Source: an uncultured Prevotellaceae bacterium (GTDB lineage: Bacteria > Bacteroidota > Bacteroidia > Bacteroidales > Bacteroidaceae). From it: 64,000 bases of DNA. Shown piece by piece: positions 9,709-59,700 of the stretch; positions within the stretch are counted from its first letter, which is position 1, and every line of letters begins with the position of its first letter. A model generated the notes under the pieces. That model did no database searches. It was not told where the DNA came from and saw only the letters and a list, made by a program, of their open reading frames with translations. The stretch lies in contig OMXS01000013.1 of assembly GCA_900315095.1 (NCBI GenBank), positions 1-64,000 on the forward strand, in the 5' to 3' direction. The position numbers and the translations under genes are program-made.

Positions 9709-9747
9709 TATGTAAAGTTCTTAATTATTTATAATCTGACTAGTTTG

Positions 9748-34105: not shown

Positions 34106-34136
34106 TGTTCGTGCTCTTTCCACGGGGATGGAGGGT

Positions 34137-41579: not shown

Positions 41580-42461
41580 TCATTTATTTAGTGTTGCTCT
41601 GACAAAGCGTTGCTTTCCATATTGGTCGTTCTTGAATGTAATATCGCCAAAACCTTGCTCTTTTAGAAGTGCTTCCAACTGCTGGGCAAAGAGCGGGTTA
41701 ATCTCGAAGTATAGCTTTCCTTGTGGCAAGAGTGCCGTCTTTGCATAGTCGCTGATGGCGCGGTAGAACTTCAACGGGTCGTCCTCGGGAGTGAAAAGGG
41801 CGATGTCAGGTTCGTGGTTTAGCACGGTCTCAGACATTGCTGCGGATTCTGAAGGAACAATATACGGAGGGTTGGAGACGATGATATCTACCTTATACCC
41901 ATCCCCAAGGGCGGGGTTTAAACCGCATTTAATGATATCTTTCTCTTTGAATGATACGTTTGCATTGAGTGCTTTGGCGTTTTGTTGGGCTATTGCCAAA
42001 GCCTCATTACTAATGTCCCATGTCTCCACCTCAGCATTAGGTATGTCGAGTGCCAGCGTTATGGCAATGCAACCAGAGCCAGTACCGATATCGAGAATGG
42101 AAAGCGCCCCTCTTATACCCCCAACAGGGGAATGTTGGGTGTTGGGTGTTGGGTGATGGTCTTCTGTTATCCATTGGCATAACTCTGCCGTTTCTGGACG
42201 GGGAATGAGTACACCAGGGGCTACATGGAAACGGCGGCCACAGAATTCTGCTGTGCCAACTACATATTGCACGGGCTCACCGTCGACTAATCTCTGCATT
42301 TTCTCCTTGAGTTCTGCCTGAGGCAGTTGCTCAACGGCACCACAAAGAATATCTGACATCGAGAGACCGTAACCCACTTCAAGAAGATAACGGGCAACGG
42401 CACGAGCCTCTCCCTCATCGTAACGGCAACATAAGAACTGACAGATGTCTCTGTATGTCAT
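41580..42461 (-). CDS. prmC: Release factor glutamine methyltransferase with in-frame repeat insertions
   Basis: 293 residues. It N5-methylates the GGQ glutamine of release factors. SAM motif LDIGTGSGCIAITLALDIP, catalytic VDIIVSNPPYIVPSE, and the N-terminal helical domain (LEVGYGLSMSDILCG, VQYVVGTAEFCGRRF) are intact. Two short in-frame insertions are odd: HHPTPNTQHSPVGGIRGA before the SAM motif, from CACCCAACACCCAACAC-type intergenic repeat, and NPALGDGYK before NPPY, from a CCCCGCCCTTGGGGATGGG repeat. Both lie in loops, so activity may survive. It overlaps btuC by 4 bp. Confidence 0.93.
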   Translation of the reverse strand: MTYRDICQFLCCRYDEGEARAVARYLLEVGYGLSMSDILCGAVEQLPQAELKEKMQRLVDGEPVQYVVGTAEFCGRRFHVAPGVLIPRPETAELCQWITEDHHPTPNTQHSPVGGIRGALSILDIGTGSGCIAITLALDIPNAEVETWDISNEALAIAQQNAKALNANVSFKEKDIIKCGLNPALGDGYKVDIIVSNPPYIVPSESAAMSETVLNHEPDIALFTPEDDPLKFYRAISDYAKTALLPQGKLYFEINPLFAQQLEALLKEQGFGDITFKNDQYGKQRFVRATLNK

Positions 42462-43489
42462 CGCGTGCGTTGTTTCAGAAGAACGTAGATAATTACCGGA
42501 GCACCCATGATTGGAGTCACGGCGTTCAGCGGAATAATGCCGTTATTACCTGGAAGTACGCAGATGATATTGCACAACAAGGCGATAGCAGCACCGCAAA
42601 AGAGAGTGGCTGGCAACAGACGACGATGGTTCTCTGTGCCCAGCAGCATGCGGGCAATATGAGGAACGGCGAGTCCGATGAATGCTACAGGACCGCAGAA
42701 GGCGGTACTAACAGCCGTCAGTACTCCAGTAACAAAGAGAAGATAATTGCGCACGCGCTTGGTGTTAATGCCCAGATTCTCTGCATACTGCTCGCCCAAA
42801 AGCAGCGCATTGAGCGGTTTTATCAATAGCATAGCAGCAATAAGACCGAGTATAGTTACCGATGCAAAAGCAGGCATCTGCTGCATGGTGACGCCGCCGA
42901 AATTTCCTAATCCCCATACCATATATGACTGCACGCCCTCCTCGGTGGCGAAAAAGTTGAGCAGAGATATGGCAGACGATGCGATATAGCCTATCATGAT
43001 GCCGATGATGAGCAGCATCACATTATTTTTCACTATCGTAGAAAAGAACATTATGAGCGCCATCACAGCCATTGCACCAACAAAGGCAGCCACAAGAACG
43101 GCGACAAAACCTGTAAGCGAGAACGACCCAGCAGTAATGCTGCCGCCAAGGAGAAGCATCACAAGAGCCACACCAAGTGAAGCGCCGCTGTTTATACCGA
43201 AGATGCTGGGACCTGCCAGAGGGTTGCGGAATGCTGTCTGAAGCATCAGACCACTTACCGCGAGTGATGCACCGCAAAGCATCGCCGTCAGCGCCTGCGG
43301 CAAACGGTTTTGCAATATGATGTAGTTCCATGAAGGATGCGCCGTATCCTCGCTGCCAAGAAGTATGCTCACAACATCTTTCACGGGGATGTCAGCGGCG
43401 CCTAGCAGCAGGTTGATGGCGAAGAGCAGCACTATCACAAGCACTATGATGCCCACGCTCATTACTCCTTTATGTGAGTTTTCTTTCAT
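42458..43489 (-). CDS. btuC: FecCD/BtuC-family ABC transporter permease
   Basis: 343 residues with about 10 transmembrane helices. Family motifs are LPQALTAMLCGASLAVSGLM, QTAFRNPLAGPSIFGINSGA and GLAVPHIARMLLGTENHRRL (interaction with the ATPase). Together with the BtuF-like gene 48 bp upstream and the B12 genes nearby it probably imports cobalamin across the inner membrane. Siderophore import is the alternative. No ATPase gene (btuD) follows; prmC does. Confidence 0.88.
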   Translation of the reverse strand: MKENSHKGVMSVGIIVLVIVLLFAINLLLGAADIPVKDVVSILLGSEDTAHPSWNYIILQNRLPQALTAMLCGASLAVSGLMLQTAFRNPLAGPSIFGINSGASLGVALVMLLLGGSITAGSFSLTGFVAVLVAAFVGAMAVMALIMFFSTIVKNNVMLLIIGIMIGYIASSAISLLNFFATEEGVQSYMVWGLGNFGGVTMQQMPAFASVTILGLIAAMLLIKPLNALLLGEQYAENLGINTKRVRNYLLFVTGVLTAVSTAFCGPVAFIGLAVPHIARMLLGTENHRRLLPATLFCGAAIALLCNIICVLPGNNGIIPLNAVTPIMGAPVIIYVLLKQRTR

Positions 43490-43537: not shown

Positions 43538-44692
43538 CTATTTCTTTACTTTGATAAAATATTTTGGCTCTCCAAGATTCTTCTCGGGATGAGCAATGCA
43601 AATGAAGTCGCGCAGCAGTCGCTCGGGGTGGAACGGTGTGTCCTCGTAGAAGGTGTTCAGAGAGTTATTGCATCCGTAGATGTTTCCTTCACGGAAAGCA
43701 CGGAACTGACTATATCCCGCCTTCTCTGAAAGCAGTTCTTTTGACGTGATATCATGCGGAGCGCTATAGCGGAAAAGCCAAATGTCAGCATCCATAGCCT
43801 TCTCAAGCACCGCCTCGAACGGCAACGAGAGAGAGCCGCTCGACTCATCCTCACTCCATGCATAACCGATGTCGGCATCACTAATCATTTGTCCTATGGT
43901 GCTCTTGCCACCAGGCACATACCATACCGAGCCTGTTAGCTTGTCCATAAGAACTGTTTTCTTTCCTCCCTCGTCCTTCCTCATTCCTCCTTCTGCCTTG
44001 AGTCTCCCGTATTCTTTATCCACTTCGGCAAACAAAGAGTCGGCCTGCTGTTCCTTTCCGAACAACATTCCATAGAAGCGCATCCACTCGGCACGTCCGA
44101 GAGGCGAGGTCTCCATGTAGTCGGCTGTCTCGATAACAGGGATGTTCAACTCACTTACGCGGCCATAACCGCCGCTGTTCTGGAACGGCGAGAGGAATAT
44201 GGCATCAGGTGCAAGGTCGATAATAGTCTCTATTGTAGGACTCAGCGCACTTCCGCAATCGCGTATCTTGCCCGACTTGACACCCTCTTTCACCCACGGA
44301 AGATTGATGTATTGCAGGTCGCACACACCGCCGACGGCATCGGCAGCACCCAGTTCGTCTGTCAAAGCACAATGAACGCTGGTCGCGATGAGTGCTTTCT
44401 TCAAAGGAGTGTGTACTATAGTGGCACCTGGGTGCAATACCTTGAGACTGTCATCACTTGCACCACTACCGTCACCAGGCACCAGCAGATAGGCATGAAG
44501 CGTCTTCCCCATGTTCCAGGGGTCGGCAAGTGTTACTACACTATAGCCGTCGCACTCCACAATCTTTATGCGTTCGGCATATTTCAATTGCAGGGTGTCG
44601 CCCACAGCGTTGCTTACCATCACACCCTTGCATCCCGTTCCCGCGACTATCGTAAGCGCAACGGCAACGGCAAAGAAAAAGAGTTTCTTCAT
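43538..44692 (-). CDS. btuF: BtuF-like periplasmic/lipoprotein corrinoid-binding protein
   Basis: 384 residues. The lipobox is ALTIVAGTGCKG, so it is tethered to the inner membrane. It has a type III (helical-backbone) binding fold: KKALIATSVHCALTDELGAA, PTIETIIDLAPDAIFLSPFQ, TVLMDKLTGSVWYVPGGKST. BtuF and FhuD-type proteins share this fold; the neighbouring btuC and the B12 context favour cobalamin. There is no riboswitch on its own leader, only a promoter (44712-44742). Confidence 0.83.
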   Translation of the reverse strand: MKKLFFFAVAVALTIVAGTGCKGVMVSNAVGDTLQLKYAERIKIVECDGYSVVTLADPWNMGKTLHAYLLVPGDGSGASDDSLKVLHPGATIVHTPLKKALIATSVHCALTDELGAADAVGGVCDLQYINLPWVKEGVKSGKIRDCGSALSPTIETIIDLAPDAIFLSPFQNSGGYGRVSELNIPVIETADYMETSPLGRAEWMRFYGMLFGKEQQADSLFAEVDKEYGRLKAEGGMRKDEGGKKTVLMDKLTGSVWYVPGGKSTIGQMISDADIGYAWSEDESSGSLSLPFEAVLEKAMDADIWLFRYSAPHDITSKELLSEKAGYSQFRAFREGNIYGCNNSLNTFYEDTPFHPERLLRDFICIAHPEKNLGEPKYFIKVKK

Positions 44693-44711: not shown

Positions 44712-44742
44712 CAAAGTTACTCATTTTTCCAATGTATACCAA
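44712..44742 (-). promoter_or_regulatory. Promoter of btuF-btuC-prmC-recX
   Basis: On the minus strand TAACTTTG (44712-44719), with a TTG (44740-44742) 20 bp upstream. The start codon is 20 bp downstream of the box, leaving no room for a riboswitch. Confidence 0.75.
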
Positions 44743-44759
44743 ACGTTTGGTAATCTTTT

Positions 44760-44960: not shown

Positions 44961-46484
44961 TTACTTTATTGCAACCTTATGACCGTTGTGGATATACAAG
45001 CCTTTCTGCATTGGCTTGCCGTTGCACAGACGGCCGTCGATGGTGTACCATTCGCCGTTCTCGTCAACACTCCAATTATCGTCTGAAAAGACTGTCGATA
45101 TTGCGGTTGACGTATCATTATTAGCTGTGTTGGACAATGGAATGAATGATACGGTCTTCTGTTCATGGTCCAGTGTAAAGGTGTATATTCCGGGTTTTCC
45201 TACGCAGTACATGTTTCTTCTTTCACCTGTGATGTATCCTACGGAATTGTTATCTTCGCTGAACTCCCAGATGTAATAAGCATTGTTCCCTTTTTTGACG
45301 TTTCTTTCAGCAGCTGTCAATTCGAAGATTCCGTAATCGTCACTTCTAACAATGAAGAACGCCTCGGTGGTCATTTCCTTCGTTAGTTTGTTGTCTACGA
45401 ATACATACTCGCTCTCCTCATTGAGCATCTCTGTTATCATGTATTTCGTCTCGCTCTCGGTCTGTGGAGCGATGGTTAGGGTCATCCCATTATCGGCAGT
45501 TTCATTAAGAGTGAATACCCATGTGTTTGCCTTAATGATGTAGAAATTCTTTCCACTATCGAATGTCGGCAGATTCTCATGGTTCTCTGCGGTGATGATA
45601 ACCGCGTCTAAAATGGTATTGCCAGCGTAGTATTTTTTCCCATTGTTGTCCTTGATATAAAACTCAGTCTGTGCAGGAATTGCCTGTGTGAGAGTTAGTT
45701 TGTCGAAAGCATACTCGTTGCCGTCATTGGTAACCAAAGTGTACTCCTTACCATCGCTGAGTTCTGCTGTTACCGCATTGTTTTTCAGGTCGAGAGTGAA
45801 AGTGTATGTTCCTTTTTTCGCCATTCTGTACATGCATCTTCTTTCGCCAGGAATGAAGTTTGTGGTGTTGTTGTCTTCGCTGAACTCCCATATGAAGTAA
45901 CCTTCTTTATTGTTACGGTCAACAGCAGTCATTTCTGCTATTCCGTAATCGTCACTACGTATGATAAAGAACGGTGTTGTGGTCATTTCCTTCGTCAGTT
46001 TGTTGTCCACGAAGACGTCTTCACTCTCTTCTTCGCGCGACTGCGAAATCATATACTTTGTTTCGCCTTTCTTTTTAGGTCTCACAGTAAGTTTAACGCT
46101 TCCGTCCTCTGCCTCGTTAATTTCGAATATCCATGTATTTGCCTTAGATATGTAGAAGTTCTCACCCTCTTTAGATGTGTTCAATTTCTTATGATTTTCT
46201 GCCCTGATGATATTTTTGTATTCATCTGCTGCATGGTATTCTATTCCATTGCTGTCCTTAATGAAGAAACTTACATGTGCAGGGAGTGCTTTCGTCAAGG
46301 TCTTGCCATCAAAGTAGAATTCGCCATAGTCTTCGACAACAAGAGTGTACACCTTTGTGGATAATAGTGTAACATCCCCTCCATTCTCCAACCCTGAATT
46401 TGCTGTTTCTGCTGCCTGTGCCCTTGTGCCAAATATCATCGCGATCAATAGGCTAAGGGTAAACCACTTGAATTGATTTTTCAT
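44961..46484 (-). CDS. Secreted protein with two ~200-residue repeat modules and C-terminal tail motif
   Basis: 507 residues from MKNQFKWFTLSLLIAMIFG; the frame extends upstream but through promoter DNA. After the signal peptide two homologous modules follow (about 38-241 and 245-445). Each has the pattern [V/A]LPAH/IPAQ..FFIKD, KANTWIFEINEAEDGSVKLT, KYMISQSREEES, and FIIRSDDYGIAEMTA, IWEFSEDNNTTNFIPGERR. A third copy of the module is in the 1218-aa protein at 56742. The fold resembles SusE/SusF-type beta-sandwiches by eye only. The tail (WYTIDGRLCNGK ... KGLYIHNGHKVAIK) is the shared sorting-like motif. It is probably surface-exposed; the ligand is unknown. Confidence 0.75.
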   Translation of the reverse strand: MKNQFKWFTLSLLIAMIFGTRAQAAETANSGLENGGDVTLLSTKVYTLVVEDYGEFYFDGKTLTKALPAHVSFFIKDSNGIEYHAADEYKNIIRAENHKKLNTSKEGENFYISKANTWIFEINEAEDGSVKLTVRPKKKGETKYMISQSREEESEDVFVDNKLTKEMTTTPFFIIRSDDYGIAEMTAVDRNNKEGYFIWEFSEDNNTTNFIPGERRCMYRMAKKGTYTFTLDLKNNAVTAELSDGKEYTLVTNDGNEYAFDKLTLTQAIPAQTEFYIKDNNGKKYYAGNTILDAVIITAENHENLPTFDSGKNFYIIKANTWVFTLNETADNGMTLTIAPQTESETKYMITEMLNEESEYVFVDNKLTKEMTTEAFFIVRSDDYGIFELTAAERNVKKGNNAYYIWEFSEDNNSVGYITGERRNMYCVGKPGIYTFTLDHEQKTVSFIPLSNTANNDTSTAISTVFSDDNWSVDENGEWYTIDGRLCNGKPMQKGLYIHNGHKVAIK

Positions 46485-46517
46485 TTTCTTTCTCTTTTTT
46501 GTGTCAAATAATCGGCG

Positions 46518-46525
46518 CAAAGTTA
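46518..46525 (-). promoter_or_regulatory. -7 box of the 44961-46484 gene
   Basis: TAACTTTG on the minus strand, 33 bp before the ATG at 46484. Upstream (46563-46632) TTGCGACAAA words occur twice and once inverted. Confidence 0.6.
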
Positions 46526-46676
46526 CTATCATCTGAATGGTATATTGTAAAACATACACTGTTTGTGACACATATTGTTGCGACAAATGCAGTTTTTTGC
46601 GACAAAATGGGGGAATGGTGCCAAAATTTGTCGCAAATACCCGTCGTTTTGAGAAAACTATAATAATAAAAATAAA

Positions 46677-46708
46677 AAGGTGTGACACATGTTGCTGTGC
46701 CACACCTT
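46677..46708 (-). terminator. Terminator hairpin after the giant surface protein gene
   Basis: AAGGTGTGACAC (46677-46688) pairs with GTGCCACACCTT (46697-46708) with one mismatch. On the minus strand it is followed by TTTTTATTTTTATTATTA. Confidence 0.85.
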
Positions 46709-46727: not shown

Positions 46728-49700
46728 TTACTTAACCACTACCTTGCGAACGCTGCCGTCCTTCATGCGGACAACCTCGATGCCACGATGGTTCTTGTCA
46801 ATAATCTTCTTTCCGTCGAGAGTGTAACGACCCTCGATGTTCTCGTCGTCAGCGTTGAACTCGATGATGCCTGTGGTAACACTCTTCGATACGTTGTATC
46901 TCACATATTGTGTCTTACCGCGCTGTGTTGCGCTGATGACTATCTCAAAGTCCTTAGCGTCATTGGTGTCAACAGTAAGTACATCACCCTCGAGACTTAC
47001 TATGCCTGCAAGTTCCTCGGGCAGAGCGTCAGCGATGGCATATGTCACCGTGCCTTGCTCGTCAAGAGTGAATGCTTCGGCGATACTTGCTGTCGTACCC
47101 TCGGTAATCTCAAGCGTTGCAGTTGTCTCTGGTCTCTTGTCACCAAGATTGTCAAGACAGAAGTAAGTGGCTGTTGTGAGGCCCCAACTGTTCTTGCGTG
47201 ATCCGTCGAACGAGAATGAGAGGTTCTTCACCGTGCCTAACTTACTGAGGTCTATCCACTGCCATGCGTCGAGATAGTAGCGGTCGGCCTCCTGTACTGC
47301 ACGATAGTCTGCAAGATAATACTCCGTGCTATTGCCGTTGTCAGCGGTGATGGTCAGTTTGAACCAGTCACCTTGCTTGAATACGCCGTCGGTCATGCCG
47401 TCGCCATTGAGGATATTGTCAACAACCCATGCGTCGTTGGTGATATACATTCCAGGAATAACATCACCATCGGCGTTGTTCATGACATATATCTTGCCAC
47501 CCTGCGGGTATGCCACAACGTAGTTCTCCGAACCATTTACGCCTCCTCCAACAGCATTGTTGAACTGGTCAGTAACGTATGTGCTGAACGAAGTGCTTGT
47601 GGTGTTAGCGTACATGAAGTCATAGAAGTAAGACCATTCAGGCATACAGCCGTTATCGAACTTGAATGAACCGCTCACGAATGAGCCAAGCTGTAGGTTC
47701 TCGCCTCTCTCGAAGCTCTCCTCTGGGAGGTAGAGTTTCTCGAAGTCAGCCACCTGAAGGTCACCTGTTACGATAGCGCGAACAGTTGCTGTGTCGCCCT
47801 TCTCTGCTGCATCGGTGACAACGAAGATGTAGTCGGTACACTCGGTAGGAGTATCCGCTGTCATGAAGATGTCATCAATGTCATCTGCACTCTCGAAGGT
47901 CTCGGTGAGCAGCACGTTGTGCTTGCTGTCCATCCATGTGAGAGTGTAAGGAGCGGTGCGCTCGTCAACGAGTACCATTGCCATAAGGTTAACGGTCTCT
48001 CCTGATGCAATGGTCTCCTCTTCGGTTGAATTGTTGATGTAAACCTCAGCCTCTGGAGCATCGGTTACAGGAGGAGTAACGTCCATTGTGAATGCTGTTG
48101 TCTGGCTGGTGCTTTCTGCATCGACGCCGCGCAGACTTACAGGCAGGAAGTATGCGATGTACTCGGCATTGTCTTCAAGACCTTCCACCTCGATGATGGC
48201 CTCAGCATTGGCAGCTACGTCCTTCTTCGTCTCGCTTGCCTTCAGTTCTTCTGCTGTAGGAGCGGTCTCGTCAGACTTCTTCACGATATAGTAAACAGTA
48301 GACGCGAGGTCGGTCTTCACTGAGAACGAAGCCTTGCCGTCAAGATGAGTGATTACCTGTGGATAGCCATCCTGCATAACAGGAGCGCTCATTGCGTTCG
48401 GGTCATACTCGTAAGCACCGATGGTGATGTTCTCTGCCGGACGCTCCTTGCCGTTGATGTCGGTGGTGACGTATGCAAGAGCCTTTGCTGTGAGCAGGTC
48501 ACCGTCGAGGTCGTTGGCTGGCTCCAGAATCTCGTTGCTCAGGAATGTCACTTGCTTGTTGATACTTCCCGTTGCACCTGTTGCTGCCACGAAAGCGTCG
48601 AAGTCGCCAGTAGTGCTCGATGAAGCACGGAAGAATGTCTCGCCACTTGTATAGATGACGTTGTTCTGGAAGTTAATTTTGTCTATTCCCAGATTAGCGT
48701 CGTTATAGAGGTTAACGGCATAGCCGCTGGTCTCGTTCTGGATGATATTGTTCACCACGTTCACGTTACCATAGCCGTCGTCCAGTTTTGACGAAGCCCA
48801 GAAGGCAGCACCGCCCTCGGTACCTGTCATGCGGATGGTGTTGTATGCCACGTTCACGTTCTTTACCTTTGTACCGTTAAACTTGAAGGCTGCGTAGCTG
48901 GCACTGAGCGAAGCCAGGTTAATGACGTTGTTGGCAATCAGCACAGGAGCCTCAGCCTTACCTTCCAGTTGGCGAAGGTTCATTACGGCAGCGTAGGTCT
49001 TTGGTGCTACGTTGAAGATGTTACCAGTGATTTCAGTTGCCTCGTCATATTCGTCGCGCAGTTGCATGTCAAGGATGCCCACGCTTATCTTTGTCTCTGC
49101 ATCGGCGTCAATGGTAACGGTGTTGTTCTTAATCTTCACACCCAGTTCGTCCATTACATAGATAGCCTTCGTACCATTGTTTTTGAAGGTGTTGCCTTCA
49201 ATCACACCGCCCGCTTCCTTAGGCAGCGCAAGGTAAGTAGTTCCACCCATAGAGACACCTATTTTACCGCCTTCGAGCAGACAGTTCTTCACGGTGAGAT
49301 AGTCGTTGTTCTTGTTCTCCTCGTCGATAATGGTGTGTCCCACAAGACAAACATCCTCGCCCGTGATAGTGCATATCGGAGCATGCAGGTAGCAGTTGTC
49401 TATGGTAGCATGACGACTCTCGTCCTTTACCATCACCACAGCCTTATATGCCTTGTCGGTAGTGTAGATTTCGAGGTTCTTCAGCGTGACATAGTTGGCT
49501 TGGTAGAGCGTCACAACACCGTAGTCTTTCTTATGCTGGTCGTCGCTGTAACCGCCTGTGGTGTAGTTGTTATGATATATCTTAACGTCACGCTCGCCGC
49601 TCTCGCTCTCAATGGTGAGAGTGTTCACGCCACCCATTCCCTTGATGTTAGGAATGCGCACCTTCTCGTTATAGTCGCCTGCCTTGATCTTCAGAGTCAC

Positions 49701-52700
49701 CGCACCGTCCATACCAAGTACACCGATATCGTCAATGGCACCTTGAATGGTAGCATAGTCACCACCTTGTCCTACGGTATAAGTTCCGCTCTTTCCGCTT
49801 GCAACAGTGAATGTGGCAGTAACGGGTTCTTCCATTGGGATTGTTGTGCCGTCAACAGTGATGCTGTTCAGCGTTGCAGAAACTTCTGTTCCTACCGAAG
49901 CATCAGCCTTCACGTCGTATGTAAGCCAGAAGTAGTAGGTTCCAAACTTTGTTACTGAATAGCTGCCGTTGAATTCCTCGTTGGCAGAGAAGGTTGTAGT
50001 AGTGCCCGTCTGATAGATGTGGTAGTTCTTAACAGCCTCGCCGTCGGTTCCTGTGATGTCGAACGCGGTAATCTCAACAGGTGTGAGGTCACCCTTTGCC
50101 TCTACCATAATCTTCAGCATCTTGGTGTCGGTCTGTCCCTTCAGTACCTCGTTGGTGCTGATGTCTTCGGCGGTAACGCCAGTAACCACCACGTCGGTCT
50201 TCTTGTAACCTTCAACCAACATTGCGAAGTTAGGTTTGATGTAGCTGCCCTTGCCTATATATTTTATAGTAATCTTGCCACCATTGACATCGGCGTCAGA
50301 GATGATTGGGTCGAACTTAGCAGACGAACCACTAAGGTCGATGATTTGATTCTCATCGAGTTCCTCACTGCCTTCGTATATATATAGGTGTGCTGTTGAT
50401 GAGAAGTCGATACCCTTGTCGGTAAGCCTAATGCAGTCGGCATCGCCAGTAGGAGCGAAAGTGATGGTGGCAGTCACACCATCGGCACCGTCACCCTCTG
50501 GACCGCCGTCGTCATAGAGGTTAACTATCTGTCCCAGTCCAAGACTAACAGTACCGTGGAAGCCTTGAGTCATCAGAATCTGGTTCTTCAGAGTGCGCTC
50601 ACCCTCCGGGTCGCCGTTTGCAACTTCAACCTCAGAGCCTGCATTGACAGACACCAGTTTTGCATCGATGGTGCTGTTTTCTTCTGCGTCAGCCTTTACA
50701 TCTACTTTCACCGTGAAGATATTGTCACCCTCTGCAAGGGCTACGGCTTCAGAAAGAGTTACTGTTACCTCGGCTGCTGCGGTTGCCTCGCCGAGTTTTG
50801 TATCGTCTTGCCAAACACTAACATTTGAAATGTTAGCCTCAGTACCTTTAAGGTTAATCTTCATGCTGCTCAACTGCAGAGCCTCGAGATTGCCTTCGGT
50901 CTTAACATTAACGTTCAGAAGATCCTGCTCGTTAGCACCTATTGAAGCGTTGGCAGTGCTTGCCTGCTCTACCTCAACACCCGTCACTGCCATTGGCTTC
51001 GAGAGATATTCGCTGACAGTGGCTTTGAATCCCTTATAATAATATGAATAAGAAGACTTTGGATTAAAGACGATTGTAAGAGAACCGTCGGCAGCAGTAG
51101 AACGGATGGTCTTTCCAGGACCTGTTGACTCCTGGTCGTTGCTGTTGAGTTCCCACAACAGTTCTCCGCTTGTGCCTTGTCCTGCATAAATCTTGAAGGT
51201 AGACTTGTTTCCATAACTTGAAGAAGCATACTGCACGTTGAACTCCGAGAAGTCTATCTGTGTCACCATACCCTCATGCTTCGGAATGAAGATGTTGATA
51301 CGGTCGTCGGTTCCTGCCTCGCAGTACGAACTGTAAGTGCCTGCTGTCTTGGTGTAGAAGTCGATGGAACCGTTCACGGTCTTGGTCACAGTACCTTGGT
51401 CAGCATGTGAAACCACCTCGTTCTTCACCATGCGGTCGGCAATAGTGCCATCGCTGACGTTCTCAGTCTTTGCAGAGCCGTTGACAAGTGCAGTAACGCT
51501 AACAACCTCGGCGCTTACGAACTCACTGTTCAGAGCCTCTTCGCTGATGTCATACTTCAGCGTGAACACGTTCTCGCCCTCTACAAGTGTTTGCGGAGTG
51601 GTGAGAGTTATCTCGAAGTTGTCGGCATTTACCTCAGCCTCGCCCACCTTTGTTGTTCCGAAGTAAAGCGATGCCTTGCTTATGAGAGCATAGGTGTCAT
51701 CGGCAGAGAATGCCATCTTCTGCACCTGCATTGCTGGTTCTGTATCCTTTGCCTTGACAGTGATGGTAAGAATGTCCTGCTCGGTGTCGCCAGCGGCAAC
51801 AGTTTCTGTAGAGGCTACTGCAGATGTTATGCCGTCGAAGTCCATTGGCTGTGGCACAAAGAGACTTACCTCTGCCTCAAATCCGTCGTAGTCGTAGTCT
51901 TGCGATGCGGCCTCAAGCACAACGGTCATCGACCCGTCTTCAGCGGTAGAGCGCACGATGCCTGTCTCTCCGTTAAGTTTCTCGGCAATCAGATTCGCCG
52001 CTGTGGCCTCAGTTCCATTGTAGAACTTAAGTGTCTGGTGATACATGCTGCCGTTGTTAATAACGAGTTTCGACAAGTCAACCATCACTTTCTTGCCTTC
52101 AACACCAGAAAGGAATGTCACCTGACCGCTTGCAGTACCCTTAATGCTGCCGTCCTTGCCGCCTTCGTCATAGAACTGCAGCGGTGTCTCGCCAACGGTT
52201 ATTGTCTGCGGTGTCGATGTCATGATGACAATGGCGGGATTCTCTACTGCAACTGATGTGCCGGCGGTGAACGGAGTTACGCCTTCGGGCTGTCCTTCGG
52301 TGGCAATCTTCGTAACGTCGAGTTGCACCTTCGCGCCTATCTCGGCAGTTCCGAGAATGTCGCCCTTTATGATGAAGTTGTTGGTGCCGTCGCTCAGTGC
52401 CTGATTCAGGGCGAACTTATAGCCGCTTCCCTCTTCAGTGACAGCAGCGTCAATGGCAGCGTCGCCATAATAGAGTTTCAGGGCTGTGGGTTCCACCATG
52501 CCCTCGTTCTGTGTCAAATTGAATGAGATTGATGTCACCTTGTCGGGGTTCATCACACCCTCGGCGGTGACGTAAGCTGTTGCAAGGTCAACGTCCTGCT
52601 TCTTTGTAATTGTTGCAGAAACATTGTCGTAGTTTGAACCAGCACCAGTTACAGTCATGTTCTCCAAGGTAACGCATTTTACCGTTGCTTTCCAACCCTT

Positions 52701-53231
52701 GCACTTCTTAGCATAGACATAAATAAATCCTACAGCCATGCTGCCGTCTGCGGCTTCAGAGACATAGGTTTCGGGAGTTGTGGACGTGTAGGCCTCGCTA
52801 TTCTTCATGCCGCCACGTGTGACGAGTACATTGCCGTCAGGAAGTGAAGAATTCTTATTCACATCAGACGCCTGAGTCGCCCATGTGAAACCCTCGTCGG
52901 ATGGTGTTCCGCTATACACTTTCATGTAAGCGGGATAACTGCCAGAAGACATATCGGGGATGATGTCAATCTCCTCGAAGGTGATTTGAATAGACTTTCC
53001 TGCTTCTGCGGGCGTAAACACTGTCAACGACTGTGAGTTGCTGGAGTTGGCTGACGGAATGTCGTCATTCCCCATGAAGTCATAGAACGTAATCACCTCA
53101 TCAGAAGCAACAGTAATAGTCTGCTTCCCGAATTGCAACTGATTGACTTCGCGGTCGGCAAATGCCTCGAGAGGCACACCGAGCAGCATCGTCATCAGAA
53201 GAAACAATGATGATAGTACTTTTTGTTTCAT
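46728..53231 (-). CDS. Giant secreted multidomain protein: four CUB-like repeats, beta-helix, DUF4465-like domain, tail motif
   Basis: 2167 residues with a signal peptide (LLMTMLLGVPLEAFA). Four units of about 275 residues begin near 35, 340, 610 and 890. Each has a CUB-like beta-sandwich (TITVGETPLQFYDEGGKDGS; SLGLGQIVNLYDDGG) followed by an Ig-like half (DTEQDILTITVKAKDTEPAM). A right-handed beta-helix spans about 1155-1560 (GQGGDYATIQGAIDDIGV, NNVINLAS). Fn3/Ig-like domains follow (1615-1830). A DUF4465-like domain (about 1845-2025) contains QFNNAVGGG, DWFKLTITADNG, WQWIDLSKLGTVKNLSFSFD. It is homologous to the 54940 gene. The protein ends YTLDGKKIIDKNHRGIEVVR...KVVVK. It starts 38 bp after the 53270-54379 gene, so it is probably in a cobalamin-riboswitch operon. 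Binding of B12 or mucosal glycans is inference only. Confidence 0.85.
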   Translation of the reverse strand: MKQKVLSSLFLLMTMLLGVPLEAFADREVNQLQFGKQTITVASDEVITFYDFMGNDDIPSANSSNSQSLTVFTPAEAGKSIQITFEEIDIIPDMSSGSYPAYMKVYSGTPSDEGFTWATQASDVNKNSSLPDGNVLVTRGGMKNSEAYTSTTPETYVSEAADGSMAVGFIYVYAKKCKGWKATVKCVTLENMTVTGAGSNYDNVSATITKKQDVDLATAYVTAEGVMNPDKVTSISFNLTQNEGMVEPTALKLYYGDAAIDAAVTEEGSGYKFALNQALSDGTNNFIIKGDILGTAEIGAKVQLDVTKIATEGQPEGVTPFTAGTSVAVENPAIVIMTSTPQTITVGETPLQFYDEGGKDGSIKGTASGQVTFLSGVEGKKVMVDLSKLVINNGSMYHQTLKFYNGTEATAANLIAEKLNGETGIVRSTAEDGSMTVVLEAASQDYDYDGFEAEVSLFVPQPMDFDGITSAVASTETVAAGDTEQDILTITVKAKDTEPAMQVQKMAFSADDTYALISKASLYFGTTKVGEAEVNADNFEITLTTPQTLVEGENVFTLKYDISEEALNSEFVSAEVVSVTALVNGSAKTENVSDGTIADRMVKNEVVSHADQGTVTKTVNGSIDFYTKTAGTYSSYCEAGTDDRINIFIPKHEGMVTQIDFSEFNVQYASSSYGNKSTFKIYAGQGTSGELLWELNSNDQESTGPGKTIRSTAADGSLTIVFNPKSSYSYYYKGFKATVSEYLSKPMAVTGVEVEQASTANASIGANEQDLLNVNVKTEGNLEALQLSSMKINLKGTEANISNVSVWQDDTKLGEATAAAEVTVTLSEAVALAEGDNIFTVKVDVKADAEENSTIDAKLVSVNAGSEVEVANGDPEGERTLKNQILMTQGFHGTVSLGLGQIVNLYDDGGPEGDGADGVTATITFAPTGDADCIRLTDKGIDFSSTAHLYIYEGSEELDENQIIDLSGSSAKFDPIISDADVNGGKITIKYIGKGSYIKPNFAMLVEGYKKTDVVVTGVTAEDISTNEVLKGQTDTKMLKIMVEAKGDLTPVEITAFDITGTDGEAVKNYHIYQTGTTTTFSANEEFNGSYSVTKFGTYYFWLTYDVKADASVGTEVSATLNSITVDGTTIPMEEPVTATFTVASGKSGTYTVGQGGDYATIQGAIDDIGVLGMDGAVTLKIKAGDYNEKVRIPNIKGMGGVNTLTIESESGERDVKIYHNNYTTGGYSDDQHKKDYGVVTLYQANYVTLKNLEIYTTDKAYKAVVMVKDESRHATIDNCYLHAPICTITGEDVCLVGHTIIDEENKNNDYLTVKNCLLEGGKIGVSMGGTTYLALPKEAGGVIEGNTFKNNGTKAIYVMDELGVKIKNNTVTIDADAETKISVGILDMQLRDEYDEATEITGNIFNVAPKTYAAVMNLRQLEGKAEAPVLIANNVINLASLSASYAAFKFNGTKVKNVNVAYNTIRMTGTEGGAAFWASSKLDDGYGNVNVVNNIIQNETSGYAVNLYNDANLGIDKINFQNNVIYTSGETFFRASSSTTGDFDAFVAATGATGSINKQVTFLSNEILEPANDLDGDLLTAKALAYVTTDINGKERPAENITIGAYEYDPNAMSAPVMQDGYPQVITHLDGKASFSVKTDLASTVYYIVKKSDETAPTAEELKASETKKDVAANAEAIIEVEGLEDNAEYIAYFLPVSLRGVDAESTSQTTAFTMDVTPPVTDAPEAEVYINNSTEEETIASGETVNLMAMVLVDERTAPYTLTWMDSKHNVLLTETFESADDIDDIFMTADTPTECTDYIFVVTDAAEKGDTATVRAIVTGDLQVADFEKLYLPEESFERGENLQLGSFVSGSFKFDNGCMPEWSYFYDFMYANTTSTSFSTYVTDQFNNAVGGGVNGSENYVVAYPQGGKIYVMNNADGDVIPGMYITNDAWVVDNILNGDGMTDGVFKQGDWFKLTITADNGNSTEYYLADYRAVQEADRYYLDAWQWIDLSKLGTVKNLSFSFDGSRKNSWGLTTATYFCLDNLGDKRPETTATLEITEGTTASIAEAFTLDEQGTVTYAIADALPEELAGIVSLEGDVLTVDTNDAKDFEIVISATQRGKTQYVRYNVSKSVTTGIIEFNADDENIEGRYTLDGKKIIDKNHRGIEVVRMKDGSVRKVVVK

Positions 53232-53269
53232 ACGTTTTAAATTTAATGTTAATAATTGGTTAGAATTTA

Positions 53270-54379
53270 CTAGTTATTTAGGAAAACTTTTCTTACGCTG
53301 CCGTCACTCATCTTTATGATGTTAAGGCCGCGCTGCGGAGTAGCCATACGGATGCCGTCTGCACCATATCGTGCCACCTCTGTCACTTCTCCATTGCCAT
53401 AAACGCCATTTATTCCCGACGCGATAATAGCATCGATAGATGCCTCAAGATGCAGGTCGTGCGCTCCTACCACCTCCGTGGAGGTCTCGCCCAACTGAGG
53501 CACCACTTGATTCATGCCGTTATATATACGCACAAAGTCTATGAAGTCGAGGTCTTTGGGTTGTCTGTTCTCGTCCACCGCCCAGCTGATATCAATAGAA
53601 CACCCTTCTTCGTTGCTATTTGGCAGGTTATCGGCATAGCCGTAACGGAGGAACATCAGCACCCATTGCTTGTTGTACATATCGTGTTCAAGGAACCATG
53701 CGTTCCTTGGCAGCCGTGTTCCGCTGAAGGTGAGGTTATCCTCAAGCCAACAAGGGTAGTACTCCTGTGGGTGGCCAAATGCGTCCATACGCGGGATAAC
53801 GCCATTGTTCCCATGATTGTCTGTCCAGGGAATATCATTCATGGGATTCTTCTTATATGTAATGCTATAAGCATAATCCACCTTCCCCACACTGTCCACA
53901 TCGGCAGAGCCGCTGATTTCGTACCAAGGGTCATCGGGCAGGTTATTGTGGTTAATGTCCTTTGAGACCATAACGATACCAGGCTCGCTAGAACCGCCAA
54001 AGGCATCGGGGAACATCTTGCTCTGCATTGAATTGCCGCGGATGCAGAAGTCGCGCTGACCGCTGATGTTGGCAATGCTATGGTCGAAATGGAATGTGAC
54101 GTAGCCGCCATAACCACCCAGCGAAATCATGCTGTGGTCATCGTCGGCGTAGTCGCCGGCAATGGATGCCGTGCATTTTGCGGCCATCGCGGCTGCATCG
54201 TCGCCTTCTTCCCATTCAGGTATGTCATTAATAAACTGTCCCGGAGCGGGCACATACTCATCTACAGCCAGGATATACTGGCTATGTTCAGCGTCATCGG
54301 TCATCTGCTGCGCTTGTAGCGGCGATACACTGACAACTGCTATAAGGCATACCAATGCCCCAATAGCTGATTTTTTCAT
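53270..54379 (-). CDS. Secreted protein of B12-regulated locus with C-terminal tail motif
   Basis: 369 residues from MKKSAIGALVCLIAVVSVSP (signal peptide); an ATG nine codons earlier lies close to the riboswitch. It is a beta-rich protein: SLGGYGGYVTFHFDHSI, RDFCIRGNS, calcium-loop-like DINHNNLPDDPWYEISG, FIDFVRIYNGMNQ. Similar proteins sit beside btuB/btuG/DUF4465 genes in other Bacteroidota B12 loci, which suggests a surface helper in corrinoid capture; the family has no name I can give. The tail is GADGIRMATPQRGLNIIK...RKVFLNN. A cobalamin riboswitch precedes it and the giant gene follows by 38 bp. Confidence 0.78.
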   Translation of the reverse strand: MKKSAIGALVCLIAVVSVSPLQAQQMTDDAEHSQYILAVDEYVPAPGQFINDIPEWEEGDDAAAMAAKCTASIAGDYADDDHSMISLGGYGGYVTFHFDHSIANISGQRDFCIRGNSMQSKMFPDAFGGSSEPGIVMVSKDINHNNLPDDPWYEISGSADVDSVGKVDYAYSITYKKNPMNDIPWTDNHGNNGVIPRMDAFGHPQEYYPCWLEDNLTFSGTRLPRNAWFLEHDMYNKQWVLMFLRYGYADNLPNSNEEGCSIDISWAVDENRQPKDLDFIDFVRIYNGMNQVVPQLGETSTEVVGAHDLHLEASIDAIIASGINGVYGNGEVTEVARYGADGIRMATPQRGLNIIKMSDGSVRKVFLNN

Positions 54380-54433
54380 GTCTTTTTCTTTTAAATCATC
54401 TTCCACGTCCTCCTCGAGACAGGAAAGAATAAA

Positions 54434-54600
54434 TTTGGTGAGGGGCAGGTCTTCTGACTTGTTGCCGATGCAAACGTCTTCCCGAAAAGTTCAGTGACGC
54501 ATTAGTTTGCACCATGAAGGGCAACTCACAGCTGCGGGACAGTTCTGGATTTCCACCTGATTCCCATTTTAATCGCTTGTACAGCGAACCCAACACGTTT
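54434..54600 (-). promoter_or_regulatory. Cobalamin riboswitch upstream of the 53270/46728 operon
   Basis: Read on the minus strand: GGTGGAAATCCAGAACTGTC, GCGTCACTGAACTTTTCGGG (B12-box region), GAAGACGTTTGCATCGGCAA, and GTCAGAAGACCTGCC at the 3' end. The order and spacing match the btuB switch at 33940. The promoter at 54608-54637 places the start of the RNA here. Confidence 0.92.
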
Positions 54601-54607
54601 CTGGGAG

Positions 54608-54637
54608 CAAAGTTACGAAAAGTAAAGCGAAATGCAA
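54608..54637 (-). promoter_or_regulatory. Promoter of the second cobalamin-riboswitch operon
   Basis: On the minus strand TAACTTTG (54608-54615), with TTG at 54635-54637 and a 19-bp gap. Confidence 0.8.
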
Positions 54638-54704
54638 AAGAAATGCATGCTTTTTTCTTTTCCGAGACAGAGAAAGTTCGGCACTGCCCAAGTTATAAAA
54701 CAAA

Positions 54705-54728
54705 AGAGAGCAGTGCGAACTGCTCTCT
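54705..54728 (-). terminator. Hairpin downstream of the DUF4465 lipoprotein gene
   Basis: AGAGAGCAGT (54705-54714) and ACTGCTCTCT (54719-54728), a perfect 10-bp stem with GCGA loop, followed on the minus strand by TTTTGTTTTATA. Confidence 0.85.
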
Positions 54729-54939: not shown

Positions 54940-55719
54940 TTATTCAACCTCGTAGGTCAGGTCGTCAATGCAGACATACGAAGGAGTGTTAAGTCCCCAG
55001 CTGCCCTTGTCTGTTCCGTCAAAGGTGAAAGTCAGGACCTTCACTCTACCCAGAGAACTCAGGTCGAGCCATTTCCAGTCTTTCACAACTGTTACGCCTG
55101 TGCGATAATCAGCAGGATAGAAATCAACGCTCTTGCCGTTGTCGGCGGTAACAGTAACCTTCAAGTAGTCACCAGTTTCAAACTTCTTGGCATAGCTGTC
55201 GCCGTTCTCAACAGAGTTAACTAGATAAGAAGAGTTAGTGAAGAAGAAACCTTTCACGTTCACTCCCTTGGTGTTGCTAACAGTTATAGTGGCTGCCTGG
55301 CCGTATACTACGGCAAACTGCTTTCCATCGTGAGCCTTGCCAGTAACGTTGTTGAACTGGTCTATGGTTAGATTAGTAGCCGAGAAACCTGTGGCTGTGC
55401 GGTTAGAAATGCCGAAGCCCATGAAGCTAAAACCATAGCTAGATACAGTGTAAGAAGTATTGAAACTCAAATCTTTCTCTGCATACGAGCAGATGTAAGT
55501 GGTGCCGCCCCATTCATCAGAGACGCCCGTTCCGTTCTCTTCACCCATCCAGAATCCCTGCTCATTGAGTTTCTGGTTTTCAAACGAGATAACTTCTGTT
55601 TTAATCTTGTCATCGATGACTGCACTATCTTTGTCGTCATCACTACACGAAGTAATTAAAACTGGTACTCCGATAAGGGCGAGAACCATAAGGCTCTTCA
55701 AAATGCTTTTTGTTTCCAT
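54940..55719 (-). CDS. DUF4465 lipoprotein under cobalamin riboswitch control
   Basis: 259 residues. The lipobox is LIGVPVLITSCSDDD. A DUF4465 beta-sandwich fills residues 35-259: SFENQKLNEQGFWMGEENG, NQFNNVTGKAHDGKQFAVVY, DYLKVTVTADNGKSVDFYPA, WKWLDLSSLGRVKVLTFTFD, GLNTPSYVCIDDLTYEVE. DUF4465 proteins recur in B12 loci of Bacteroidota and may overlap with the described BtuH-type surface B12 binders; I cannot confirm that identity from sequence. It has its own riboswitch and terminator, so it is a separate unit. Confidence 0.9.
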   Translation of the reverse strand: METKSILKSLMVLALIGVPVLITSCSDDDKDSAVIDDKIKTEVISFENQKLNEQGFWMGEENGTGVSDEWGGTTYICSYAEKDLSFNTSYTVSSYGFSFMGFGISNRTATGFSATNLTIDQFNNVTGKAHDGKQFAVVYGQAATITVSNTKGVNVKGFFFTNSSYLVNSVENGDSYAKKFETGDYLKVTVTADNGKSVDFYPADYRTGVTVVKDWKWLDLSSLGRVKVLTFTFDGTDKGSWGLNTPSYVCIDDLTYEVE

Positions 55720-55856
55720 TGAAAATATAATTTAACTTGTTAATGAAATCAAGACATGTTTACCGTTTCCAAGAATACGGCATTACATTTCATCGTTATA
55801 GTTTTTAAATTACCTCTTCTGCGTCTTCCTCGAGACAGAGAAAATTAAAGATGAAA

Positions 55857-56044
55857 GGCAGGTCTTCTGACTTGTTGCCGATGCAAACGTCTTCCCGAGA
55901 AATGCTTATTAATGACTCAGCGCTCAACAATACTCTCAGTGACGTTGTGTTTGCACCATGAAGGACAACTTACAGCTGCGGGACAGTTCAGGATTCACAC
56001 CAGATTCCCTTTTAATCACTTCGCAAGTGAACCAATCATGTAAC
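55857..56044 (-). promoter_or_regulatory. Cobalamin riboswitch upstream of the DUF4465 lipoprotein gene
   Basis: On the minus strand: GGTGTGAATCCTGAACTGTC, CCGCAGCTGTAAGTTG, AACGTCACTGAGAGTATTG (B12-box region), CTCGGGAAGACGTTTGCATC, GTCAGAAGACCTGCCT. The variable arm is about 25 nt longer than in the 54434 switch (it includes GAGCGCTGAGTCATT). The promoter is at 56051-56080. Confidence 0.92.
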
Positions 56045-56050
56045 CGATTG

Positions 56051-56080
56051 CAAAGGTATAACAAAAAACGGATACCGCAA
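56051..56080 (-). promoter_or_regulatory. Promoter of the third cobalamin-riboswitch unit
   Basis: On the minus strand TACCTTTG (56051-56058), with TTG at 56078-56080 and a 19-bp gap. Confidence 0.8.
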
Positions 56081-56138
56081 AAAATAACTTGTTTTTTATT
56101 TGGTATTACTTATTATTTGCCTCATATCTTTAACAACT

Positions 56139-56741: not shown

Positions 56742-59700
56742 TTACTTAATCACCACTTTCTTACCGTTGTGGATATAGATGCCTCTCTGTGGGTTTGTAA
56801 CCTTCACGCCCTGGAGGTTGTACCAGTCGCCGTCGCTGAAGTCAACGGTGCTCTCGATGCCGCGGATGTCTGAAGACTCACCGTCGAAGATGAGGTTAAT
56901 CTTAGCACCTGAAGCATTGTCAACCTGCAAGTAAGCCTTACCAGCAGAGAGTTTCTTGCCGTTAGCGAGTGGAGCGAAGCCAGGCTGTCCGCCCTCTACT
57001 GCCAGCACGAAAATTGTACCGTCGCCAGTAACGTTGCCGTCAGAAACCTGAAGCATATTCGTATAATCAAGAACAGCGTCTTCAACCTTAAGCAGTTTAT
57101 GAACGCCCGCGGTACCGTTCACTATTACTGGAGTGCCTGCAGGTGCCTCAGTGATTTGCTCTGCTTTTGCATTACCACCTGTGATTTCAGTGATGATATA
57201 AGCAGTAACGTCGTCTGGGAACTGCACTGCTGAAGGAGTTACGAACGTTGCCCACTCGTAAGAAGAGATTGTCAGATCAACATACTCTACTGTCTTTTCT
57301 GCAGTTACTGTATTATTGGTAAGGTCGATTGTGAATGTGTATGTTCCAGCCTCGCCCACCGTGTACGATCCACGTATTTCACCAGCGATGAATTCCACAG
57401 TAGGATCATCTTCGCTGAATATCCAGTAACGGCGGTCTTCTGGGGCATTGAAGGTGGTAGGTGTCAGGTTGGTCAGTCCGTAGTCATCGCTGCGAGTGAA
57501 GTAGAACTCTTCCGTAGTCGAAGTCATCTCCTTCGTCAGCTTGAGGTTCTCATCGAACACATCGTTACTCTCCTGGAGATAGCCTGAAAGCATATACTTC
57601 GTCTCGCCTTCCGTCTCTGGGCTAACCGTCAGCATCAGACCATCAGAAGCCTCAGTAAGCGTGAATACCCATGTGTTAGCCTTCTTCAGGTAGAAGTCCT
57701 TACCGTCCGCCGAAGTCGGCAGGTTCTCGTGGTTCTCCGCAATGATAATCAATTCCGATTGAGCGTCAGCGCTGTGGTACTCATTACCCATGTTGTCTTT
57801 GATGTAGAACTGCGTGTGTGCAGGCAGTTCCTTAGTGAGAGAGAGACTTTCAAATGGAGTCTCTTCTTCTCCAACAACTAGAGAATAAGTAGTAGCTGAT
57901 GTGGCTCCCTTCTTGTATATCTGGACTGGAGATTGCGATGCAGACGCATAGCAACTGAAAATATCACTACCAGAATTATACTGCAATACATTTCTTCCGT
58001 TAGTTCTTTGGAATACTACCGAAGTGCCTTCATCAGTAATTGTAATCACAGCCTTTGCGTTATCATTCTTTTCATCCTCTGTCTTCAGATGATTTGAAGA
58101 ATTGCTTGCTGCATAGATATAACCATCGCCCGTATTGAAATACCATCCTTCAGAGTTTCCTTCGAGGGTGAATACCTGTATCTCACCTGAATTTGAAACA
58201 AGGGCATTGCCTGTCTCATCGAATGTAACTCCAGTGGCAGCACGATTATTAGAGTTCTGAGTAGAACTCATTGCTTTACCAGCGTCAGTATTCACGATTA
58301 TCACTTCGTCGCCTTCTGAAAGAGCAGAAACACTAGTAACCAAGGAATAAGGTTCTGTCTTCAACTCTACCACGTGTATCGTGCACGCACCAAAAATATC
58401 ATCATTGTCAGCAGCCGCTGCTTTGATAATGATGTTTCCTGCTCCGACTGCTGTCACCTTACCATCCTGGTCGACAGTTGCCACAGACTCGTCTTCTGAG
58501 GTCCATATCAAGTTTACGGTCGCATTATCAGGTTCAATGGTGGCATTGATTTTCTTTGTCTGACCAACTACTAATGTAGCCTCGATGACATCGAGAGAGA
58601 TTCCTGTCACAGCCACAGCGTTCACGGTGATGTTATAAGTGGCGGTCTTTGTCACGTCAGCCTTTGTATATGATACTGTTACCGTCTGAGTTCCTGCGGT
58701 GCTCATGTCATAGCCTTCGAACGTAGCGTCTGCAGTGACATCCTCTGAAGTGTTGTTATCGTAAGCGGCGGTAACCGTCATTCCCTCATGTGAGAACTCA
58801 TCACCTACATTGAATGTTGTGGGATAGTCGCCGCTGAGCGTAATACTGCTCAGTGCACGATTATTTACTGTGATTTCGTAAGTCTTTGTCTTCGTCACTC
58901 CTCTTTCCGTATAACTTACTGTCACCGTCTGGGTTCCCGCAGTGTTCATATCATATCCCGTGAACGTGGCTTTATCGGTCACCACTTTCGTCGAATTGTC
59001 ATCGTATACTGCTGTCACAGTTCCTGTTTCTCCGAAAGAGAACTCGTCGCCCACAAAGAACGTGGTGGGATATTCACCGCTAAGCATTATACCTGTCAAC
59101 GTCTTGTTTACAGGTTTACTGTAAATCTGGACTGGTTGTTGGCTACCTGCATAACAGGAGAATATATTATTTCCAGAATTATACTGAAGGTAATTATGAG
59201 TGTTAGTACCCTGGAACTTTATGTCTGCATCGTCACCACTGATGGTTATGCTTGCCTTTGCATTGTTATTGTTATCTTTCTCTGCTTCCGTCCTCAAGTA
59301 ATTCTTATCACTGCTTGCTGCATATAGATAACCGCTAACCTCACCATTTACAGTTTTGAAATACCATCCTTCAGAGTTTCCTTCAAGGGTGAACACCTGA
59401 ATATCAGTAGAAGCTGGAACGATAGCGTTATCCGCATCGAAGGTAACTACAGTAGCACCACGATTGTTATTGTTCTGTGTCGTACTAATTGCTTTGCCAG
59501 CAGCCTTATTCACGATAATGACATTATCGCCTTCTGCAAGGTCATCAGCATTTGTAACCAAAGTATAAGCATCTCCAGTCAAGGCGTTCACCGTGATGGT
59601 ATAAGTTGCGGTCTTTGTCACTTCACGTTCCGTGTATGATACGGTCACATCATACGTGTCAGCGATACTCATGTCATAGCCGTCGAAAGTAGCGTCTGCA

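Follow-up and report, generated by a model that had tools for sequence, protein, structure and literature searches.

What does a protein of 2167 residues do behind a cobalamin riboswitch? The uptake of vitamin B12 (cobalamin) in gut Bacteroidota is known mainly from the lipoproteins of Bacteroides thetaiotaomicron. In a 64,000-nt stretch of contig OMXS01000013.1 (assembly GCA_900315095.1) from an uncultured Prevotellaceae bacterium, hereafter the window, domains of the BtuH and BtuJ types sit on proteins that lack a lipobox, in a genome that encodes a type IX secretion system (T9SS), and one of these domains is fused to a very large arm. The explanation that best accounts for the whole, to which we give a probability of about 0.7, is a riboswitch-controlled pair of a BtuH-type protein and a giant BtuJ-type protein, exported by T9SS, in which the arm has a B12-linked role. 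The features of this unit are listed below.

54608-54638, minus: Bacteroidota-type promoter motif, exact consensus match, abutting the riboswitch
54427-54608, minus: cobalamin riboswitch (RF00174, 92.7 bits, E 9.9e-22)
53270-54379, minus: stand-alone BtuH-type protein P0002, 369 residues (profile match at residues 32-312)
46728-53231, minus: giant protein P0001, open reading frame of 2167 residues
49782-53144, minus: residues 30-1150 of the giant, four repeats of CUB plus sialidase-N-terminal-type immunoglobulin-like (Ig) domain (Pfam; repeats 2-3 modelled; profile comparisons)
48372-49766, minus: residues 1156-1620, right-handed parallel beta-helix (Pfam and model)
47766-48371, minus: residues 1621-1822, linker region, FN3/Ig-like by inspection, no family match
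47130-47765, minus: residues 1823-2034, DUF4465 (BtuJ-type) domain (Pfam, alignment and model)
46872-47129, minus: residues 2035-2120, Ig-like part, boundary by inspection (modelled strands, no family match)
46731-46871, minus: residues 2121-2167, C-terminal tail; a profile of this type of tail matches 45 places in the genome
46677-46708, minus: terminator-like hairpin 3' of the giant gene, 13-pair stem followed by a T-run

The two-gene unit and its products

The Rfam RF00174 covariance model finds three cobalamin riboswitches in the window; a fourth lies elsewhere in the same genome (G000:C50:18247-18441, plus). That of the unit is well above the gathering score of 31.5 bits and stands, as the original prediction had it, in front of the genes for a secreted protein and the giant, whose reading frames are both open and lie 38 bp apart. 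The promoter motif matches TTTG-N17-23-TAnnTTTG, which we take to be the Bacteroidota promoter consensus; the window holds 17 exact matches against 1.64 expected, a count reached in 0 of 100 shuffles, and sigma-70-type matches are near shuffle level (19 against 16.1). On the minus strand no exact match to the consensus occurs between the riboswitch and the hairpin past the giant gene, including the 38-bp gap, where a promoter of the giant's own had been named as the finding that would count against a shared message. A single riboswitch-controlled message carrying both genes is thus the simplest reading, and a likely one. That the giant gene is constitutively controlled on its own and merely adjoins the riboswitch unit is highly improbable: the scan used a single promoter consensus at full stringency and the adjacency is known here from sequence alone, which leaves this alternative some room, but neither the gap nor the remainder of the unit has a promoter motif, and in 13 of 41 relatives the riboswitch is directly before the giant gene.

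The unit appears to be bounded by the hairpin past the giant gene and by a second one upstream (54705-54728, minus; 10-pair stem), between it and the gene of a DUF4465 lipoprotein. Because terminator-like matches in the region of the two hairpins are overall not above shuffles (9 against 10.5), the case for both is one of stem length and position only. The gene at 44961-46703 was considered as a third operon member and is probably outside the unit, since the hairpin at 46677-46708 intervenes and the likely ATG (residue 74, by inspection) comes some 240 bp later. The btuF/btuC-type genes beyond it are also unlikely members, because they have a promoter motif of their own (44743-44712).

The first gene had been described as encoding a secreted protein. 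Its secreted-type character stands (the N-terminus is signal peptide-like, without a lipobox by inspection); what had gone unrecognised is its identity, since residues 32-312 match BtuGH (8blw) at E 1.3e-56 and BtuH2 (7biz) at E 1.1e-38. P0002 has the B12-binding-type domain of BtuH1, BtuH2 and BtuGH of B. thetaiotaomicron and stands alone like BtuH1 (PMC8941943), but differs in lacking, by inspection, the lipobox, in carrying a C-terminal tail of the giant's kind and in two of eight contact residues. The B12 contacts named for BtuH2 are Gln333, Asn399, Phe401, His476, Tyr510, Trp511, Trp577 and Leu578 (PMC8941943), of which six are retained as Q48, N116, F127, H203, W239 and L296. At one related locus (L004, 7633-9699, plus) there is a BtuG-BtuH fusion, as in BtuGH of B. 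thetaiotaomicron, with a separate BtuH-type gene and a giant adjacent.

The architecture of the giant is much as had been predicted. Its four repeats of about 275 residues find one another in all six pairwise profile comparisons (at least 99.65% probability, 19-31% identity), and repeats 2 and 3 are modelled as a CUB domain plus a sialidase-type Ig domain. Pfam places BNR_assoc_N in three stretches, Beta_helix at residues 1241-1373 (E 3.2e-7) and PF14717, DUF4465, at residues 1865-2029 (E 8.4e-46, 157 bits against a cut-off of 25); the right-handed parallel beta-helix is supported by this match and by the model. The foreseen union of a beta-helix with the domain of the DUF4465 lipoprotein (E 4.4e-42 in the latter) is therefore present, and the hidden Markov model match and the structure model agree that the C-terminal domain is DUF4465, which the prediction had listed as the point on which it might fail. 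The Pfam CUB model has no match in the giant at E <= 1, and the only PDB chains that match P0001 at E <= 0.1 are DUF4465 chains. As in P0002, the N-terminus is signal peptide-like and a lipobox was not found by inspection.

The Ig half of the repeats resembles the N-terminal Ig-like domain of Bacteroidota sialidases, but a sialidase propeller was not found in the giant by Pfam. The CUB half of the modelled repeats shares the fold of cubilin, and the first Foldseek match is cubilin with intrinsic factor-cobalamin (E 1.1e-11); by Z score, other CUB proteins equal or surpass it (2wno has 14.9, cubilin 13.2), so that the likeness is one of fold rather than a sign of a shared ligand, and the first match was rejected as evidence of kinship. 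The best conserved part of the giant is the beta-helix: mean identity to P0001 per 50-residue block is 0.59-0.74 over residues 1151-1500 and 0.52 and 0.61 in the next two blocks, compared with 0.49-0.59 over residues 1851-2000 in DUF4465.

DUF4465 is the family of BtuJ, in which BtuJ1 and BtuJ2 bind B12 (PMC12751083), as do six further members (PMC13398666). The model of the giant's domain has the augmented beta-jellyroll fold with a helix in the DE loop, as in DUF4465, and the known B12-site positions correspond to Y1885, W1935, T2019, T2020 and Y2023. Two of the four hydrogen-bonding residues common to BtuJ1 and BtuJ2, which are conserved in B12-bound structures rather than shown to be required, are kept: Thr242 as T2020 (T in 33 of 37 giants in an automatic alignment) and the hallmark HI-loop Tyr245 as Y2023 (Y in 35, F in 2). 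Cobalamin binding by this domain, its strength left aside, is likely. BtuJ1, BtuJ2 and D5EK51 of Coraliomargarita (DUF4465, IPR027828) are chains of 244-305 residues, whereas the giant's DUF4465 is the C-terminal part of 2167 residues with CUB/Ig repeats and a beta-helix, lacks a lipobox and differs at two of the four shared bonding residues. A new type of corrinoid capture had been proposed for the locus; its B12 regulation and the fusion of giant and DUF4465 hold, but DUF4465 is the domain of the BtuJ proteins, whose B12 binding others have demonstrated, so that capture by this domain would be of a known kind.

Relatives, their riboswitches and the arm without DUF4465

Relatives of the giant are encoded at 22 named loci, about half of them labelled as coming from ruminant stomach samples (RUG names presumably denote rumen genomes; L003 has no stated source and L024 is labelled Clostridiales). 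Among 201 genomes of the same genus DUF4465 occurs in 76, and in 23, the present one included, it lies by hand count in a frame of at least 1500 residues; the beta-helix is found at E <= 1e-20 in 25, namely these 23 plus G122 and G174, whose beta-helix frames hold no DUF4465. Across 295 genomes of the order DUF4465 occurs in 120, with six besides the present one having it in a frame of at least 1500 residues, and the five of these that were fetched (L048-L052) all have repeats and beta-helix. Read from these frames, the CUB/beta-helix/DUF4465 architecture is conserved in the genus and is found also in other Bacteroidales families. Separate arrangements exist in which DUF4465 is tripled: a giant with three tandem copies (L009/L036; L009 10001-17674, plus) and a 1408-residue protein with three copies and no beta-helix (L054 8830-13056, minus); those of L009 and L054 lie beside btuB/G/F/C-type genes and are possible multivalent B12 binders.

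Riboswitch placement was counted, after removal of duplicates, over 41 giants or scaffolds that have the repeats as well as the beta-helix (L038 and L039 look almost identical, and shorter paralogues without beta-helix in L014 and L020 were left out). A same-strand cobalamin riboswitch lies upstream within the fetched stretch in 33 of the 41, within 500 bp in 13. For the other eight (L010, L012, L017, L024, L034, L042, L048, L053) none was found in the fetched stretch; in L034, L042 and L053 the riboswitch is further upstream, and the remaining five run off their contigs. In all 25 beta-helix genomes of the genus the contig carries a cobalamin riboswitch upstream of the gene and on its strand, the genes in between having been read only in part in G143, G096, G148 and G175. 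Where read, these genes are homologues of btuB, btuG, btuH, btuF or a DUF4465/repeat protein; opposite-strand frames in L007, L009, L021 and L010 were dismissed as shadows of BtuG, BtuH, BtuG and BtuF homologues, respectively, on the giant's strand. At the level of the order, 12 of the 13 top-scoring genes among the matches listed (12 with in-frame DUF4465 plus G339, the cut drawn afterwards) have such a riboswitch, and G475 runs off its contig. An order-wide B12-specific beta-helix family was rejected, because the profile finds many generic giants (in 79 of 295 genomes) and the B12 link was observed in the top-scoring subgroup alone. A regular expression for the riboswitch core was dropped, as it recovered only 13 of 44 known riboswitches.

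Three relatives consist of repeats and beta-helix alone: L059 in G122 (1432 residues), L060 in G174 (1404 residues) and L064 in G339 (1745 residues), the last belonging to another family than the first two. A profile built from the DUF4465 domains of the giants themselves finds no such domain in any of the three, even at E 10. By longest frame they start 17, 173 and 171 bp, respectively, 3' of a cobalamin riboswitch, the likely true start of L059 and L064 being a later Met. Since genomes hold only one to seven riboswitches each, placement of three out of three behind one by chance is very unlikely, small as the number is. In six control genomes with generic beta-helix giants (G285, G452, G359, G345, G440, G239), chosen from the upper part of the matches listed and with at most five candidates scored per genome, the riboswitches are on other contigs than the listed beta-helix matches.

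In light of these genes directly behind riboswitches, and of the conservation of the beta-helix, the CUB/beta-helix arm probably has a role of its own in B12 acquisition. The contrary view, that the repeats and beta-helix are an inert spacer or rigid rod, that all B12 function lies in DUF4465 and that the giant is a long BtuJ, is unlikely. In its favour, proven B12 binding among relatives is limited to the DUF4465 part (PMC13398666), and large proteins often contain beta-helices of this sort; moreover, beta-helix plus DUF4465 forms without CUB repeats exist (L065, L066, L067, L069), so that the repeats are dispensable in some relatives. Against it stand the stronger conservation of the beta-helix than of DUF4465 and the placing of the three arm-only proteins directly behind cobalamin riboswitches.

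Two observations made along the way concern other genomes and loci. An open frame in G285:C35 runs to 11,871 residues and matches the broad beta-helix family at least five times. In L063, at about 4200-10030, the peptides FNPRPHREGD, SIHAPTGRAT and FQSTPPQGGR recur in short open reading frames near a relative's BtuJ-type gene, and look like a translated CRISPR array.

Export and a proposed mechanism

The genome contains the SprA_N family (758.7 bits), a Peptidase_C25 match (E 2.4e-96) as expected of PorU, and the PorV family (E 3.2e-130), the last on the same contig as the giant; SprA, the C25 peptidase PorU and PorV are, we assume, components of T9SS. Among 16 relatives of the giant tested, 13 carry the TIGR04183 sorting domain above cut-off. 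In the first eight, of which six had been chosen for canonical-looking tails (L033, L035, L045, L050-L052), those six match; in eight further relatives seven match, including the arm-only L059 (27.3 bits) and L060 (25.0 bits). Because the genome has the machinery and relatives have sorting domains, the giant probably leaves the cell by type IX secretion. Such export has already been proposed for DUF4465 proteins with a T9SS C-terminal domain, IPR026444, which is present in 229 of 824 members of the family (PMC12751083).

The tail of the giant is of another make. A profile built from 12 such tails, 4 of them from the window, matches at 45 places in the genome at E <= 0.01, counted irrespective of position in the protein, and PF18962 matches at two, one of them above cut-off. 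A tail pattern Y..DG.....RG...V...DG..RKV.VK recurs in many frames. Those tested match neither TIGR04183 nor PF18962, and the pattern may represent a form of the T9SS sorting signal particular to Prevotella.

The following sequence of events is proposed. Under B12 scarcity the riboswitch would permit the two-gene message, and both products, bearing signal peptides, would be exported by T9SS to the cell surface or the medium. Corrinoid would be bound by the giant's DUF4465, in the loop pocket described for BtuJ1 and D5EK51. Anchoring of T9SS cargo is through the C-terminus, so that DUF4465, about 130 residues from the end, would lie near the membrane, within reach of BtuH and the BtuB-BtuG gate, which could take over the vitamin, and the repeats and beta-helix would point outward. 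A stalk raising the B12 domain away from the cell would have the opposite orientation. The outward arm would probably bind a carrier or concentrator of B12, for example a glycan polymer, the surface of a cell or vesicle, or a carrier protein, and DUF4465 would receive the corrinoid held there. In Xylanibacter ruminicola KHP1, from the rumen, transcripts of riboswitch-near genes respond strongly to cobalamin (PMC11575231).

Taken further, the arm would be a new B12-acquisition module, exported by T9SS, that captures corrinoid that is not free (on polymers, cells, vesicles or carriers) and hands it to DUF4465, BtuH and BtuBG; this we put forward tentatively, as a possibility with the odds against it. 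Its clearest sign is the position of the arm-only genes, and it would be unlike the described Btu proteins with which it was compared (a set without BtuK, BtuL and BtuX, other accessory genes of B12 loci in B. thetaiotaomicron; PMC12751083). In its boldest form the captured carriers would be haptocorrin or intrinsic factor of the host, and the arm would be the bacterial equivalent of the CUB array in cubilin. The wider system is known to be capable of capture from carriers, since B. thetaiotaomicron BtuG2 is able to remove B12 from human intrinsic factor (PMC6143338). The predicted tethering to host or mucin was set aside, as no feature for it was found in the giant, although no search was aimed at it; it survives only in this boldest form.

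Two other functions were considered. The beta-helix could be catalytic, with an activity of the lyase, epimerase or glycosidase kind that releases B12 held by polymers or by glycoprotein carriers, or that loosens the surface polysaccharide around the transporter; we regard this as improbable. Doubtful, too, is release of the giant as a free or vesicle-borne corrinoid trap (cobalophore), a function that has been proposed for BtuJ on Bacteroides vesicles. BtuJ1 and BtuJ2 act on extracellular vesicles of B. thetaiotaomicron (PMC12751083), and the giant's tail differs from the classical T9SS type A domain, which makes its anchoring uncertain; yet BtuJ1 and BtuJ2 are lipoproteins and the giant has no lipobox by inspection, and diffusive loss of a 2167-residue protein would be costly, which is an argument and not data.

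Several points weigh against a riboswitch-controlled, T9SS-exported pair with a B12-linked arm. In P0002 two BtuH2 contacts are glutamine (Tyr510 is Q238, Trp577 is Q295). In the giant Tyr146 of BtuJ is replaced by W1935 (over the 37 giants W 16, Y 11, V 8, N 1, F 1; W also in the solved structure 4jqr), Asn241 by T2019 (T 25, N 9, V 2, gap 1) and the loop proline by A2021 (P in 34), and the Tyr97 equivalent, Y1885 here, is Y in only 14. As to export, the tails of the window giant and P0002 match neither TIGR04183 nor PF18962, L034 and L010 have no TIGR04183 match, and the arm-only L064 is below its cut-off (21.2 against 23 bits). Many proteins without any visible link to B12 have beta-helices of the broad family, the outward geometry leans on the general mode of T9SS anchoring, and binding, export and expression in this organism are what we infer from its genes.

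As far as our searches show, three things are new: the architecture, the likely placing of BtuH and BtuJ domains from a single unit on T9SS cargo, and the arm that lacks DUF4465 yet is linked to riboswitches. In the open-access literature, searched by titles and abstracts with supplements excluded, no paper on such a giant was recognised. The available text of PMC12751083 makes no mention of Prevotella, beta-helix, type IX or multidomain, and that of PMC13398666 none of Prevotella, fusion, IPR026444, multidomain or giant; these DUF4465 passages describe neither the CUB/beta-helix architecture nor its riboswitch, nor relatives made of the arm alone. An arm made of folds of adhesive and polymer-binding type is kept across many ruminant Prevotella-like genomes and in other Bacteroidales families. 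If it does assist in drawing B12 from bound sources, competition for the vitamin would have a further layer, one that the models in the available parts of the published work lack. Propionate formation in rumen bacteria depends on B12 (PMC11575231), and a role of the arm in B12 capture could be tested in cultured strains.

Neighbouring B12 genes

The other B12-related features of the window are as follows.

56051-56081, minus: promoter motif of the lipoprotein riboswitch, exact consensus match, ending at the aptamer start
55840-56051, minus: cobalamin riboswitch of the separate DUF4465 lipoprotein gene (RF00174, 103.3 bits)
54940-55719, minus: DUF4465 lipoprotein, BtuJ type, 259 residues (DUF4465 match E 4.4e-42)
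44712-44743, minus: promoter motif of the BtuF-type gene, exact consensus match
43538-44692, minus: predicted BtuF-type periplasmic binding protein (PF01497, E 8.3e-24)
42458-43489, minus: predicted BtuC-type permease, FecCD family (PF01032, E 7.3e-78)
33931-34111, plus: cobalamin riboswitch of the separate btuB-btuG unit (RF00174, 105.2 bits)
34128-36206, plus: BtuB-type TonB-dependent receptor (BtuB1, 8blw_A, E 2.5e-117)
36272-37471, plus: BtuG-type beta-propeller lipoprotein (8ptf, E 2.9e-31; 8blw_B, the BtuG part of BtuGH, E 1e-30)

The lipoprotein at 54940 has a lipobox-like ITSC before SDDDK, read directly, and its own riboswitch agrees with the separate B12 regulation that had been proposed for it. 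Flanking the B12 genes are two secreted-type, uncharacterised proteins (44961-46703 and 56742-60398, both minus) that share a domain of about 200 residues at 52% identity and have C-terminal tails alike in kind; P0005 also has Big_3/Big_2 domains by Pfam.

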